Below are positions 33,751 through 38,807 of a DNA stretch of 64,000 nucleotides, piece by piece. A model generated the notes under the pieces. That model was given only the letters and a program-made list of their open reading frames with translations. It was not told the origin of the DNA and made no database searches. Made by a program: the position numbers and the translations under genes. The stretch comes from Aliiroseovarius sp. S1123 (GTDB taxonomy: Bacteria > Pseudomonadota > Alphaproteobacteria > Rhodobacterales > Rhodobacteraceae): contig NZ_JALKBE010000004.1 of NCBI RefSeq assembly GCF_023015885.1, positions 124,001 through 188,000 of the forward strand, given 5' to 3'. Position 1 is the first letter of the stretch; each line of letters starts with the position of its first letter.

Positions 33751-34704
33751 ATGAACTGGATCTCGAACTACGTCCGCCCCCGCATCAACTCGCTTTTTTC
33801 GCGACGCGAGGTGCCGGAAAATCTGTGGACCAAATGTGGTGAATGCGGAACCATGCTGTTCCACCGCGAATTTGCCGAGAACCAGAATGTCTGTACCAGC
33901 TGCGATCATCACATGGCGATCACGCCGCGTGAGCGCTTTATGCATCTGTTTGACGGCGGCATCTTCACCGAGGTGGACGTCCCCGCCCCGATCGACGATC
34001 CGCTGCAGTTCAAAGACCAGAAGAAATATCCCGAGCGTATGAAGTCCGCCCGCAAGGGCACCGGCGAACGCGAAGCGATGCTGGTGGCGGAAGGCGAAAT
34101 CGGCCGCACCCCGATCATCGCGGCGGCGCAGGATTTCAGCTTCATGGGCGGCTCGATGGGCATGTATGTGGGCAACGCAATCATTGCGGCTGCCGAACGT
34201 GCCGTGGCTCTGAAACGTCCGCTGGTGCTGTTCTCGGCCGCAGGTGGCGCGCGGATGCAGGAAGGCATCCTGTCGCTGATGCAGATGCCGCGCACCACGG
34301 TTGCCGTGCAGATGCTGAAAGAGGCGAACCTGCCCTATATTGTTGTTCTGACCCACCCGACCACGGGTGGCGTGACGGCCTCCTACGCGATGCTGGGCGA
34401 CGTGCATATTGCCGAACCCAACTCCCTGATCTGCTTTGCAGGCCCGCGCGTGATCGAACAGACTATCCGTGAAAAACTGCCCGAGGGCTTCCAGCGCGCT
34501 GAATACCTGTTGGATCACGGCATGCTGGACCGCGTGACGCACCGCAAGGACATGAAGGACGAGCTGGTGACGATTCTGCGCATGCTGACCGGCCAACCGC
34601 CTGCAGTGATGGGCGATCTGCCGAAGCCCGAGCCGGAAGCTGAAGCCGAACCGGCTCAGACCGAAGAGGTGTCCGCAGACGCCGAAAAGGCTGACAAAGC
34701 GTGA
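33751..34704 (+). CDS. accD: Acetyl-CoA carboxylase carboxyltransferase subunit beta
   Basis: 317 residues. The N-terminal four-Cys zinc ribbon ([10 protein letters not shown] and VCTSCDHHM, about residues 28-50) and the carboxyltransferase core ([50 protein letters not shown]) are intact. A 25-residue acidic Glu/Ala-rich tail follows. It forms the alpha2beta2 carboxyltransferase with AccA, which is encoded 26 kb away in this window, making malonyl-CoA for fatty-acid synthesis. folC overlaps its stop (GTGA). Confidence 0.96.
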
Positions 34705-35975
34705 GCGCCCAAGGCTCGGACGTCATCCTTGACCGGATGATGTCGCTGCACCCGAAAATCATCGACCTGACGCTTGATCGTGTTTGGCGGCTTCTGAAGG
34801 CCGTGGGCAACCCGCAGGACAAGCTGCCTGCCGTGATCCATCTGGCGGGCACGAACGGCAAGGGCTCGACCCAAGCGATGATCCGCGCGGGGCTTGAGGG
34901 CGCGGGCAAGGCGGTGCACGCCTATACCTCGCCGCATCTGGCGCGTTTCCACGAACGCATCCGCCTGGCGGGCGAGCTGATCAGCGAAGACGCCCTGAGT
35001 GAGGTGTTGGACCGCTGCTATGCCGCCAATGGCGGCGAGAACATCACATATTTCGAGATCACGACCGTCGCTGGCCTGATGGCCTTTGCCGAAACGCCAG
35101 CCGATTACACCTTGCTGGAAACCGGGCTGGGTGGACGGCTGGACGCGACCAACGTGGTCGAGAAACCCGCGCTGACCGTGATCACCCCGATCTCGATCGA
35201 CCACACACAGTTTCTGGGCGAAACCCTGCCCGAGATCGCGGGCGAGAAAGCCGGCATTCTGAAACGCGGTGTGCCCTGCGTGGTTGGCCCGCAGAAAGAC
35301 GAAGCGCTCGAGGTGATCGAGGCGCGCGCCGCCAAGCTGGGCTGCCCGCTGTTCGTACATGGTCAGCACTGGCATTTCTGGGAAGAACGTGGCCGCCTGA
35401 TTTTCCAAGACGAAAACGGGCTACTGGATCTGCCCCTGCCCGCCCTGATCGGCCCGCACCAAATCGAAAACGCTGGCGCCGCAATTGCCGCGCTGCGCGT
35501 TCTGGGCTTTGACGAAGCTGCCTGTGAAGCCGCGATGCGCGACGTCACATGGCCCGCACGGATGCAGCGTCTGAAAACCGGCCCGCTGATCAACGCTGCG
35601 GGTGACGCCGAGCTGTGGTTGGACGGCGGTCACAACCCGGCAGCGGGCGAGATGCTGGCAGGCGTTCTGGCCGATCTGCCCAAGCGGCCAACTCATCTGA
35701 TCTGCGGGATGCTGAACACCAAAGACATCGCGGGCTATCTGCGCCCCTTGGCAGGCGTGGCCGACAGCCTGACCGCCGTGTCCATCCCTGACGAGCCCAA
35801 CACCCTTCCTGCCGAGACCACGGCGGATGAGGCCACAAAAGTCGGGATGACGGCGCGCACCGCAGACACGGTCGAGGCTGCAGTCACCACCATCACGAAA
35901 GCCGATCCGCAATCACGCATCCTGATTTGCGGATCCTTGTATCTGGCGGGCGCAATCCTGCGCGAAAACGGCTGA
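34701..35975 (+). CDS. folC: Bifunctional folylpolyglutamate/dihydrofolate synthase
   Basis: 424 residues with a GTG start overlapping accD. The Mur-ligase-like ATP loop is [14 protein letters not shown], followed by [15 protein letters not shown], the omega-loop region and [13 protein letters not shown] near the C-terminal domain. It adds glutamate to dihydropteroate and to folates. The accD-folC order is a widely conserved coupling. It is followed by the structured non-coding interval. Confidence 0.95.
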
Positions 35976-35991
35976 GATAGCGACTTTCACA

Positions 35992-36027
35992 GGCGTGATC
36001 ACAAAATTAATTTTGCGCGGTCACGCC
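35992..36027. repeat. Nested inverted repeat after folC
   Basis: The outer 7-bp arms GGCGTGA and TCACGCC enclose a perfect 14-bp palindrome CAAAATTAATTTTG (36002-36015). It lies 16 bp after the folC stop. It could act as a terminator for folC, although the T-rich stretch is inside the loop and not after the stem. Confidence 0.6.
35995..36009. repeat. 15-bp direct repeat, copy 1
   Basis: GTGATCACAAAATTA is identical to 36253-36267, 258 bp further on. A 15-bp exact match inside 400 bp of non-coding DNA is unlikely by chance. It contains the palindrome GTGATCAC. Confidence 0.7.
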
Positions 36028-36063
36028 CGATCGCTTCAAGAACACGAGTCAAACCCCGGAAAA

Positions 36064-36105
36064 GAATCACTTTTTTGCCCGATTCGCGAATCGGTAGTGA
36101 TTCTA
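36064..36105. promoter_or_regulatory. GANTC cluster inside a palindrome
   Basis: Four GANTC motifs lie at 36065, 36082, 36089 and 36100, with a fifth at 36220. Two of them form the perfect 16-bp palindrome CCGATTCGCGAATCGG (36080-36095), which is itself flanked by the inverted arms AGAATCAC (36064-36071) and GTGATTCT (36098-36105). GANTC is the CcrM methylation site, read by GcrA at promoters in alphaproteobacteria (established knowledge). Its position just upstream of the predicted promoter suggests cell-cycle control (inference). Confidence 0.6.
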
Positions 36106-36115
36106 TGTAAAACAT

Positions 36116-36144
36116 TGACGGTTTAAGGGGTTAGCGCCTATAAA
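36116..36144 (+). promoter_or_regulatory. Predicted sigma-70 promoter reading into non-coding DNA
   Basis: TTGACG and TATAAA are separated by exactly 17 bp, one mismatch each from consensus, the best such match noticed in the window. The predicted start is about 36151. The inverted arms GCCTATA (36136-36142) and TATAGGC (36155-36161) straddle the -10 and start site, like an operator. Confidence 0.6.
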
Positions 36145-36252
36145 TAGAGTATTCTATAGGCAAAGTCCGCATGAAGTGGACGGCTTATCGAGCAGTACAT
36201 TTCGCCGGGGCGGCAAAGTGATTCGCACGGGGCAAGAATTATCCATGCCCTT

Positions 36253-36267
36253 GTGATCACAAAATTA
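36253..36267. repeat. 15-bp direct repeat, copy 2
   Basis: Identical to 35995-36009 (GTGATCACAAAATTA). The pair could bound an inserted segment or be two binding sites of one regulator. Confidence 0.7.
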
Positions 36268-36346
36268 CATCGTGACTCTTTGCCTAACCCAGCGGCGCTT
36301 CGGGGTATTCCGACCCCATCCGAGTTAGGCAGGCAGGTGAAAACCT

Positions 36347-36372
36347 GAGGGGTCGCAGACGCGCGGCCCCTC
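36347..36372. terminator. Hairpin 10 bp after the zapE stop
   Basis: A 9-bp stem GAGGGGTCG/CGGCCCCTC as read on the plus strand (one G-U); on the minus strand one A-C mismatch occurs instead, followed by AGGTTTT. It can end both the leftward zapE transcript and the predicted rightward small RNA. Confidence 0.5.
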
Positions 36373-36381
36373 GTCACGCCG

Positions 36382-37467
36382 CTAGACGTCCATTCCCCAG
36401 TCTTTATCCTGCATCTCGCGCAAGCGACTGGCCGTGCGTTCGAACTCGAACGAGCCTTCCCCTTCGACATACAGCATTTCCGGCAGAGCCGCAGCGGATG
36501 CGATCAGACGAACTTTGGCCTCGTAAAGCGCGTCGATCAGCGTCACAAAGCGCTTCGCCTCGTTGAAGTTCTGACGGCTCAGGCGCGGGATGTCTTCCAG
36601 CACCAGCAGCTTCACCGCATTGGCGACGGTCAGATAGTCACCCGGCCCAAGCATCGCACCACACAGATCGTGGAACCGTGCGCGCGCGGCGCCATTGCGA
36701 TAGGCGGGCAACACGACCTCGCGCCCTTTGACGGTCAGGACAAGCGGCTCGGCCTGCCCGCCCGTCATATCCTTCCACAGCGCATCAATCGCCTGACGCG
36801 CATCGGCGTTCGCGGGGCTGAAATAAACCTGCTCGCCTGCCAGACGGTCTTGGCGATAGTCATTCGGGCTGACCAGTTCATGCACCACCATCTGATCTTT
36901 CAAAAGCGCGATGAAGGGCAGGAACAGTTGGCGGTTCAGCCCGTGCTTATACAGCTCATCAGGGTGGCGGTTCGATGTGGTGACAACAACGACGCCCGCT
37001 TCAAACAGCTTTTCGAACAATCGCCCGACGATCATAGCGTCGGTGATGTCGGTGATTTGCATTTCGTCAAAAGCAAACAGTTTCACATCGGCGGCGATCT
37101 TCGCGGCGACCGGCGCCAGCGGATCATCTACACCGGTCTTGCGCGCTGCGTTCATGCCCTCGTGCACTTCCTGCATGAAGGCGTGGAAATGCACGCGACG
37201 GGCTGCAGTGTTCTCAAGACTATCGACAAAAAGATCCATCAGCATCGACTTGCCACGCCCTACCCCGCCCCAAAGATAAAGACCCTGCGGAACGTCTTCG
37301 GGCTTGGAATGAAACAGCCCGCCCAGAATGCCGCGCTTGCGCTTGGGGGCAGCGTCCAGATGTTCGCGGATGTCCTCAAGGCCCGGCAGGCAGGCCTCTT
37401 GCGCGGGGTCACGGGTAATCTCGCCGGATTGGGCAAGGGCATCATAGGTTTGGATCAAGTTCGCCAT
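36382..37467 (-). CDS. zapE: Cell division ATPase ZapE (AFG1 family)
   Basis: 361 residues. An AFG1-type AAA ATPase with Walker A LWGGVGRGKSMLMDLF, Walker B LFAFDEMQITDI and the arginine region TTSNRHPDELYKHGLNRQLF. ZapE is a Z-ring-associated ATPase in Gammaproteobacteria; its alphaproteobacterial role is inferred from the family. I start at MANLIQTYDA because this aligns with the usual family N-terminus; in-frame codons extend 39 residues further but look non-coding. No good Shine-Dalgarno is seen at this start. It is divergent from the MFS gene. Confidence 0.9.
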   Translation of the reverse strand: MANLIQTYDALAQSGEITRDPAQEACLPGLEDIREHLDAAPKRKRGILGGLFHSKPEDVPQGLYLWGGVGRGKSMLMDLFVDSLENTAARRVHFHAFMQEVHEGMNAARKTGVDDPLAPVAAKIAADVKLFAFDEMQITDITDAMIVGRLFEKLFEAGVVVVTTSNRHPDELYKHGLNRQLFLPFIALLKDQMVVHELVSPNDYRQDRLAGEQVYFSPANADARQAIDALWKDMTGGQAEPLVLTVKGREVVLPAYRNGAARARFHDLCGAMLGPGDYLTVANAVKLLVLEDIPRLSRQNFNEAKRFVTLIDALYEAKVRLIASAAALPEMLYVEGEGSFEFERTASRLREMQDKDWGMDV

Positions 37468-37565
37468 GAGTGACAGATAAAACGCCGCGTCACATAAAGA
37501 AAGGTTAAGTGGCACATCAAAAAGCAAGAATTGACGCAGTGCGGCAATTGTCTGACATTGTGTGA

Positions 37566-38807
37566 ATGACTGAGACGCGCGCACCCCTTATCACCCCGGT
37601 CCTTGTGGCTGGTTGCCTTATCATCCTGATCAGCTTTGCGATCCGGGCCAGCTTCGGTGTGTTCCAGATCCCGATTGCCACCGAATTCAACTGGCCGCGT
37701 GCCGAGTTTTCGCTGGCGATTGCGATCCAGAACCTTGCCTGGGGCATTGGGCAACCCATCTTCGGCGCGATTGCCGAGAAGATTGGGGACCGTAAGGCCA
37801 TCATCATGGGCGCGATCATCTATGCAGTCGGGCTTGTGGCAAGCTCGATGGCTGTCACGCCGGAAGCGCATCAGATGCTTGAGGTATTGGTGGGCTTCGG
37901 CATTGCGGGCACCGGGTTTGGCGTCATTCTGGCTGTCGTGGGACGCGCTTCCAGCGACGAGAACCGCTCGATGTCACTGGCGATTGCCACCGCTGCCGGG
38001 TCCGCCGGTCAGGTCTTTGGCGCGCCGTTGGCGGAATACCTGCTGAGCTTCATGACATGGCAAAACGTCTTCGTGGTCTTTGCCGCGGCCATTTTGGCCA
38101 CGCTGGCATTGCTGCCGCTGATGAAGACAGAACCCCTGGCCAGCAAGTCCGAGCTGGAAGAGAGCATGGGGCAGATCCTGATCAAGGCGTTCAAGGATCC
38201 CAGCTATACCCTGATCTTTCTGGGCTTCTTTTCCTGCGGATATCAGTTGGCCTTCATCACCGCCCACTTCCCCGCCTTCGTGACCGAGATGTGCGGCGCC
38301 ATAGATCCGTCGGGCACGCTGGCGGCGGTTGGGGTCTCGACGACCTCGGCATTGGGGGCGATTTCTATTTCGTTGATTGGGTTGGCGAATATCGCGGGTA
38401 CGCTGTTTGCGGGTTATCTGGGCAAGACCTATTCGAAGAAGTACCTGCTGGCGGCGATCTATACTGGGCGCACGATTGTGGCGGCCTTGTTCATCCTGAT
38501 GCCGATCACGCCGACCTCGGTGATCATCTTCTCGATCGCGATGGGATCGCTGTGGCTGGCAACCGTCCCACTGACCTCGGGCCTTGTCGCGCATATCTAT
38601 GGGCTGCGGTACATGGGGACGCTCTATGGCATCGTCTTCTTCTCGCACCAGTTGGGCAGCTTCCTGGGTGTCTGGCTGGGGGGCCGGATGTATGACGCGT
38701 TTGGCGACTACACGATGGTTTGGTGGATCGGTGTGGGGGTCGGGGCGTTTTCGGCCATTGTGCATTTGCCGGTGAAAGAGCAGCCTTTGTCGGCGCGTAC
38801 AGCCTAG
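37566..38807 (+). CDS. MFS transporter
   Basis: 413 residues with 12 hydrophobic segments. The loop between helices 2 and 3 reads GAIAEKIGDRKAIIMG, the major facilitator signature. The opening FGVFQIPIATEFNWPRAEFSLAIAI and a charged central loop resemble the oxalate/formate antiporter or monocarboxylate subgroup. Substrate is not assignable. The start has no obvious ribosome site, possibly leaderless. It is followed by hairpins and the shared 24-bp motif at 38881. Confidence 0.85.
   Translation: MTETRAPLITPVLVAGCLIILISFAIRASFGVFQIPIATEFNWPRAEFSLAIAIQNLAWGIGQPIFGAIAEKIGDRKAIIMGAIIYAVGLVASSMAVTPEAHQMLEVLVGFGIAGTGFGVILAVVGRASSDENRSMSLAIATAAGSAGQVFGAPLAEYLLSFMTWQNVFVVFAAAILATLALLPLMKTEPLASKSELEESMGQILIKAFKDPSYTLIFLGFFSCGYQLAFITAHFPAFVTEMCGAIDPSGTLAAVGVSTTSALGAISISLIGLANIAGTLFAGYLGKTYSKKYLLAAIYTGRTIVAALFILMPITPTSVIIFSIAMGSLWLATVPLTSGLVAHIYGLRYMGTLYGIVFFSHQLGSFLGVWLGGRMYDAFGDYTMVWWIGVGVGAFSAIVHLPVKEQPLSARTA

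Follow-up and report, generated by a model that had tools for sequence, protein, structure and literature searches.

Results

Organization of the folC-zapE interval

The window, by which we mean the whole 64,000-nucleotide stretch of DNA analyzed here, carries folC (34701..35975, + strand; an open reading frame with Mur ligase middle and C-terminal domains) and, convergent to it, zapE (36382..37584, - strand; an open reading frame with an AFG1-like ATPase domain match). The nearest named relatives of the genome are Aliiroseovarius; its ZapE is 98% identical to that of A. marinus. Directly 3' of folC, on the + strand, sequence inspection identifies a terminator-like inverted repeat (35992..36027) that contains the first of two GTGATCAC palindromes. 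This palindrome, putative operator 1 (GTGATCACAAA, 35994..36006, no strand assigned), lies approximately at -151 from an ATTCT landmark, and putative operator 2 (TTGTGATCACAA, 36251..36262, likewise strandless) at approximately +106. Between them are a five-site GANTC cluster of the CcrM/GcrA type (36046..36103, strandless; sites at 36046, 36064, 36081, 36088 and 36099) and a conserved sigma-70-like promoter on the + strand (36115..36144). The -35 hexamer TTGACG (36115-36120) and the -10 hexamer TATAAA (36139-36144) of the original prediction are both present; they are separated by 18 bp, and the predicted spacer of 17 bp is obtained only when the -10 element is taken as CTATAA. A stricter promoter scan of the locus returned no match; it demands T as the sixth base of the -10 element, which TATAAA lacks.

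Downstream of the promoter, folding and divergence delineate a proposed non-coding RNA of approximately 220-225 nt (36148..36372), with a predicted start near 36151; it and the features within it that follow are on the + strand. The 5' leader forms a double hairpin (36157..36187) supported by compensatory changes, to which the stem GTCCGC-ATGAA-GTGGAC (36165-36181) belongs, and is followed by the leader motif CGAGCAGTAC (36189..36198), identical in 16 of 16 loci. In the window clade, the stem GCCTAAC...GTTAGGC encloses an inner hairpin (36282..36330). Toward the 3' end, GGCAGGCAGG (36328..36337), which is common to Shimia and the 3' UTR of an intact operon in Rhodalgimonas, runs into a GNRA-capped hairpin, CAGGT-GAAA-ACCTG (36334..36347; the loop is GCAA in five of seven window-clade loci), and then into a GC hairpin, GAGGGGTCGC/GCGGCCCCTC (36347..36372), that we read as the descendant of an operon terminator. 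By inspection, the GC stem has ten pairs, one of them G-U, where 9 bp had been predicted. No terminator-type U-tract follows it on the + strand of the window, by inspection or by scan; U-rich tails follow the 3' hairpin in some other genera (e.g. L043).

The stem-rich character of the interval holds, with the leader, GNRA-capped and GC hairpins all in place: a 229-nt stretch folds at -90.8 kcal/mol, compared to -74.1 ± 4.9 kcal/mol for shuffled sequences (z = -3.4), and none of 200 shuffles folded as well. The + strand has no sizeable frame, as had also been noted; the only open reading frames of at least 30 aa inside the interval are 43 aa and 31 aa long. A 110-aa frame on the minus strand (36138-36470) overlaps the element and the end of zapE. 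The interval sequence is present as a single copy in the genome at E ≤ 0.001.

An Rfam search of positions 35940-36420 returned nothing at E ≤ 10, in agreement with the original prediction, which could not match the interval to tmRNA, SRP RNA, RNase P or a familiar riboswitch class; the interval is novel to the extent that it falls outside the Rfam families. In the 16 frame-less loci scanned, no Rfam match exceeded the gathering score. The suggestion that the RNA is 6S-like did not survive this search. It resembles 6S RNA (RF00013) only in approximate length and in having stems; the interval has no match to the model and the genome has another candidate (G000:C1:64621; E = 1.9e-6, with 39.5 bits where the family cut-off is 46.4). 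Alpha-tmRNA (RF01849) was likewise set aside, as its model does not match the locus and the genome's alpha-tmRNA is at C11:703572.

A rhodanese-LysM operon at the same place in relatives

Frame-less intervals of 399-500 bp are found in 16 of 21 genomes of the genus (G000-G020; loci L001-L016). Other genomes have rhodanese and LysM genes here. This operon is seen between folC and zapE with both flanks in A. lamellibrachiae (L037) and Rhodalgimonas (L109), with the folC side only in G019 (L017) and G013 (L129), and with the zapE side only in Lentibacter (L088, L091) and an uncultured relative (L072), where the two genes are 690 bp apart. At L017 and L037, a window-type promoter and leader (39.4 and 28.8 bits, respectively, with leader model R1) run into the ATG of a rhodanese-domain protein whose start resembles a signal peptide by eye, and a LysM protein follows. 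As expected of a UTR-derived RNA, the leader precedes the rhodanese start at these two loci, and the 3' block of the window resembles the 3' UTR and hairpin of the L109 operon. In A. subalbicans (L038), the rhodanese gene is broken. The upstream stretches inspected for intact operons (L072, Lentibacter, Rhodalgimonas) contain 2-5 GANTC sites.

The interval is evidently a remnant of a rhodanese-LysM operon, in which both frames were lost and the promoter, 5' leader and 3' UTR/hairpin were kept. Insertion of a rhodanese operon into an older sRNA gene is less likely, because the operon is also found at this position in Lentibacter, Rhodalgimonas and L072, all of which the tree places at a distance from Aliiroseovarius. 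By sequence identity, rhodanese genes related to the A. lamellibrachiae copy are present in G007 (96%), G013 (100%) and G019 (62%). A distant paralogue (41-45% identity; L172, G000:C18:160158-160718) is present in all eight genus genomes searched, and the lost copy may thus have been redundant. In G000, G008, G016, G001 and G010 (the last 56% complete), only the distant rhodanese was found. In the intact operons L088 and L109, the 5' UTR sequence CCGCCTGCC might base pair with GGCAGG of the 3' UTR; inspection by eye showed this complementarity for Lentibacter and Rhodalgimonas, but it was not apparent in Shimia, and we set it aside.

Outside the genus, frame-less loci occur in Pseudooceanicola (5), Shimia/Pseudopelagicola (4), and Cognatishimia and an uncultured relative (3). 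Loci were assigned to this class ('RNA_only') when they had three or more GANTC sites clustered within 120 bp and an interval below 520 bp; L018-L030 were left out as chance matches, and L033-L036 as duplicates of L003, L006, L008 and L009. The element is absent from six 'no_cluster' loci with gaps of 190-350 bp (L044, L055, L069, L078, L099, L112). On a quick FolC+ZapE tree of 93 rows, 15 of which have no state because folC was not found in the locus, the frame-less label needs five changes, at least four of them forced by starred branches, though such counts cannot separate gain from loss. In one record titled Nocardioides marinus (L042), folC and zapE group with Leisingera, and the record is mislabelled or contaminated. 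A DNA search of 61 genomes gave convincing scores in Aliiroseovarius only, the best E value among the 40 genomes outside the genus being 0.004. The leader covariance model matched 9 of 390 genomes in a drawn sample of the order, six of them from this genus, with nothing convincing beyond it; by eye, the match L130 resembles coding sequence of ilvD, and neither folC nor zapE was matched at L130-L132.

GANTC cluster and AkgR-type palindromes

At the background frequency of the window, the chance of five GANTC sites in a given 58 bp is 2.5e-9. The window contains 62 GANTC sites, 4.6-fold below the Markov expectation of 283, and its densest spot outside the interval has 2 per 100 bp. At least 5 GANTC per 100 bp were reached in 20 of 200 Markov simulations because these hold 4.6-fold more sites than the window; our clustering argument uses the real background, not the Markov model. 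Across the 28 frame-less loci, GANTC density is 13.55 per kb versus 0.73 per kb in the flanks, a comparison that is partly circular since the cluster defines the class, and 117 of the 145 sites are of the YGAKTCK type. The count made in the window is free of this circularity. By eye, 12 loci of other genera have a GANTC site between the -35 and -10 elements. The genome encodes GcrA and a CcrM-like methylase with a RAMA domain.

GANTC is depleted in genomes yet enriched between genes (PMC3973325). Methylated YGAKTCK sites are the presumed points of GcrA action in Caulobacter, and in Brevundimonas GcrA did not favor an extended form of the GANTC motif (PMC7987155). With the Caulobacter and Brevundimonas promoters of that paper, the window shares GANTC sites, mostly YGAKTCK, and the presence of GcrA- and CcrM-type genes. 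It differs in that its nearest upstream site (36099-36103) lies just upstream of the -35 element.

The two GTGATCAC palindromes flank the promoter at a separation of 255-258 bp in 16 of 16 loci (operator 1 of L008 is one base off). In the window they are 258 bp apart and the second falls inside the proposed transcript. The distance between operator and promoter is constant while the surrounding sequence changes. L038 has kept the first palindrome and its second is degraded; in A. lamellibrachiae, the second lies within N-terminal codons of the rhodanese gene. G019 has neither palindrome at the locus, as expected if the two act together, and has seven TTGTGATCACA matches elsewhere. In the window genome, TTGTGATCACA has nine matches at six places, whereas the control has none. 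Two of the places are within coding sequence, identified by eye as mfd and ntrX; the others are upstream of sdhC, upstream of sucC, at a gene for a GntR/FCD regulator and at this locus. Within an 18-kb stretch (L119, L120 and L122; G000:C19:128206-146132), pairs of GTGATCAC precede sdhC and sucC and a single palindrome is at the GntR/FCD gene. This stretch is a probable AkgR-type TCA regulon of Aliiroseovarius, and its GntR/FCD protein, judging by domains and neighborhood, would be the AkgR orthologue. We take AkgR to be RSP_0981.

GTGATCAC is an AkgR motif (PMC6365646), and the Rhodobacter sphaeroides GntR protein RSP_0981 was predicted to control the succinyl-CoA synthetase and succinate dehydrogenase genes (PMC4344238). 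The window genome is like R. sphaeroides in the motif, in the sites before sdhC and sucC, and in the GntR/FCD gene of the 18-kb stretch; the pair of widely spaced sites with one in a proposed transcript is, in contrast, a feature of the present locus, and no sRNA member of the regulon appears in the available text of the two papers (PMC6365646, PMC4344238). TGTGATCACA together with Rhodobacter gave no match in the open-licence literature.

Divergence, folding and compensatory changes

Within the window clade (7 species), p-distances were 0.073 for the leader, 0.024 for the 3' block, 0.045 for the promoter, 0.11 for the GANTC block, 0.0 for operator 1 and 0.119 for operator 2, compared to 0.202 for the spacer, 0.22-0.24 for the middle and 0.388 for fourfold sites of folC/zapE. 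The corresponding values in the other clade (9 species) were 0.054, 0.106, 0.155, 0.225, 0.051 and 0.048, compared to 0.370, 0.33-0.45 and 0.477. The contrast weakens when the two Aliiroseovarius subclades are compared with each other, with RNA ends and promoter (leader, 0.202; 3' block, 0.279; promoter, 0.251) only about 2-fold below fourfold sites, which at 0.513 are near saturation; the operators differ by 0.028 and 0.1, the spacer by 0.53 and the middle by 0.51-0.61. Folding z-scores were between -1.9 and -5.5 in all 19 loci tested, out of the 28 frame-less, with RNA bounds in the relatives set by motif and hence rough. The middle folds unlike between the two subclades.

Some compensatory base changes, for which the original prediction had proposed comparing the interval among relatives, were found in the leader and in second-clade stems. 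In the leader, 3 of 18 pairs change on both sides, and 98.3% of cells are paired versus 31-53% when the pairing is slid; at least three compensated pairs occurred in 138 of 500 shuffles, while the covariation score, and likewise the other leader measures that exceed shuffles, was reached by none of 500. The outer leader helix has no compensatory change. Second-clade stems have 6 two-sided changes among 37 pairs (94.3% of cells paired versus 43-58% slid), a number reached by 2 of 500 shuffles. Support from the window clade by itself is weak: both partners change in only 2 of 70 predicted pairs, with an unfavorable covariation term (+0.97). The terminators of Shimia and Cognatishimia covary. In L008-L016 of the second clade (alignment A7, columns 59-68 and 142-152), the G-rich stretch that preceded the old start codon now belongs to a covarying stem.

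Discussion

Operon ancestry, loss of the frames, conservation of RNA ends and control sites, and some compensatory changes can all be read from the sequence. The original prediction of a regulatory RNA stands insofar as the interval is a conserved, structured, non-coding unit with low divergence, compensatory changes and lost coding constraint; its 6S-like label does not. The GANTC cluster, the two palindromes and the operon origin go beyond that prediction. We conclude that this unit is probably a genuine small RNA with ties to methylation in the cell cycle and to control of the TCA cycle, and retention of the control region together with the RNA ends suggests that the RNA itself has a job. 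We favor, with some confidence, a model in which a rhodanese-LysM operon lost its frames but kept its promoter and ends to leave an sRNA of approximately 220 nt, which would be controlled by GcrA and AkgR and would act in trans.

In this model, transcription would begin near 36151 and GcrA would activate it at CcrM-methylated GANTC sites. An AkgR-type GntR regulator bound to the two promoter-flanking operators could modulate transcription across their 258-bp separation, probably via a DNA loop or a downstream roadblock. The RNA may base pair in trans through the conserved CGAGCAGUAC and GGCAGGCAGG and, in this way, could adjust mRNAs for the envelope or the TCA cycle to the stage of the cell cycle and the supply of carbon. 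A count of GTACTGCTCG, which is complementary to the leader motif, gave no hint of a target: it occurs less often than its control (3 versus 11), and one of the three occurrences is the locus itself.

A plainer account is that the interval is a fossil operon, with a decaying promoter and UTRs that are perhaps transcribed but functionless, and that its conservation is merely slow decay. The broken rhodanese of L038 would then be decay in progress, the middle does diverge at half to nearly the full fourfold rate (0.22-0.45 versus 0.39-0.48), and a rhodanese relative in every genus genome searched could have made the lost copy dispensable. However, within each subclade the promoter, leader and 3' UTR/hairpin are 3-16-fold less divergent than fourfold sites, so operon decay alone is not an easy explanation. 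In the window clade, these three blocks fall 5-16-fold below fourfold divergence and 3-9-fold below the interval's own spacer and middle. With compensatory changes in the stems as well, we consider a fossil unlikely. Compensation also bears on the idea that conservation serves GANTC methylation and AkgR binding, as a regulatory element or chromosomal landmark, with the RNA a by-product. Such a DNA element would account for the GANTC cluster and the fixed spacing of the operator pair, but the leader and 3' hairpins have neither GANTC nor operator and are about as conserved as the promoter. Since paired positions change in compensation, DNA sites alone are insufficient, and we see rather little chance that this account is correct.

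The last hairpin stops 9 nt short of the zapE stop codon and, on the zapE strand, is followed by AGGTTTT, which would suit a local role in cis: a convergent transcript and hairpin that keep transcription of folC and zapE apart, or an antisense RNA to the 3' end of zapE. Such a role requires neither a regulated promoter nor a covarying leader, and Ruegeria has folC-zapE gaps of 33-148 bp without the element; we regard it as improbable. Finally, a remnant of the rhodanese N-terminus could be made as a short protein, given that an ATG TTT start with 37-43 codons is left in 8 of 16 loci and that L012 keeps a TTG start with 52 codons. Against this, the first 28 codons of the leftover frame give a pN/pS of 0.83 in the second clade, so that the frame evolves almost neutrally there, and the seven window-clade loci keep only a 12-codon GTG frame. 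A protein product thus seems very improbable.

The model of an sRNA left by the operon has a bolder extension, which we put forward tentatively and at less than even confidence. The rhodanese-LysM mRNA could already have had two functions, with trans-acting ends, and Aliiroseovarius, Pseudooceanicola and Shimia/Cognatishimia could have independently dropped the proteins and kept a free sRNA that couples CcrM/GcrA replication timing with TCA-cycle control by AkgR.

sRNAs built from mRNA UTRs are known, and include the 3'-end sRNA SdhX (PMC9438474). The RNA proposed here is similar in its origin from untranslated regions and in a putative TCA-cycle link. Unlike in those cases, where parent mRNAs are still coding, the coding part here is lost and leader and 3' UTR form one short unit; the window hairpin also has no + strand U-tract, and so is not an intrinsic terminator of the kind associated with UTR-derived sRNAs. 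EcpR1, described in Sinorhizobium (PMC4414408), is an alphaproteobacterial sRNA linked to cell-cycle control. Among titles and the opening lines of abstracts in the open-licence literature, we found nothing on point for sRNAs born from lost coding genes, and that literature yielded no folC-linked sRNA in Rhodobacterales. An sRNA that remains after loss of the coding part, perhaps several times, would be a variant of the known UTR-derived sRNAs.

Births of sRNA genes are hard to trace because these genes change fast. In Aliiroseovarius, an intact operon, a broken operon and a frame-less unit occupy the same site and the control region has been kept, and a possible sRNA birth by coding loss can thus be followed stepwise. 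The candidate RNA may be connected both to a methylation signal of the cell cycle and to the regulator of the TCA cycle. If the ancestral mRNA did have two functions, deletion of its coding part would have given birth to an sRNA gene repeatedly.
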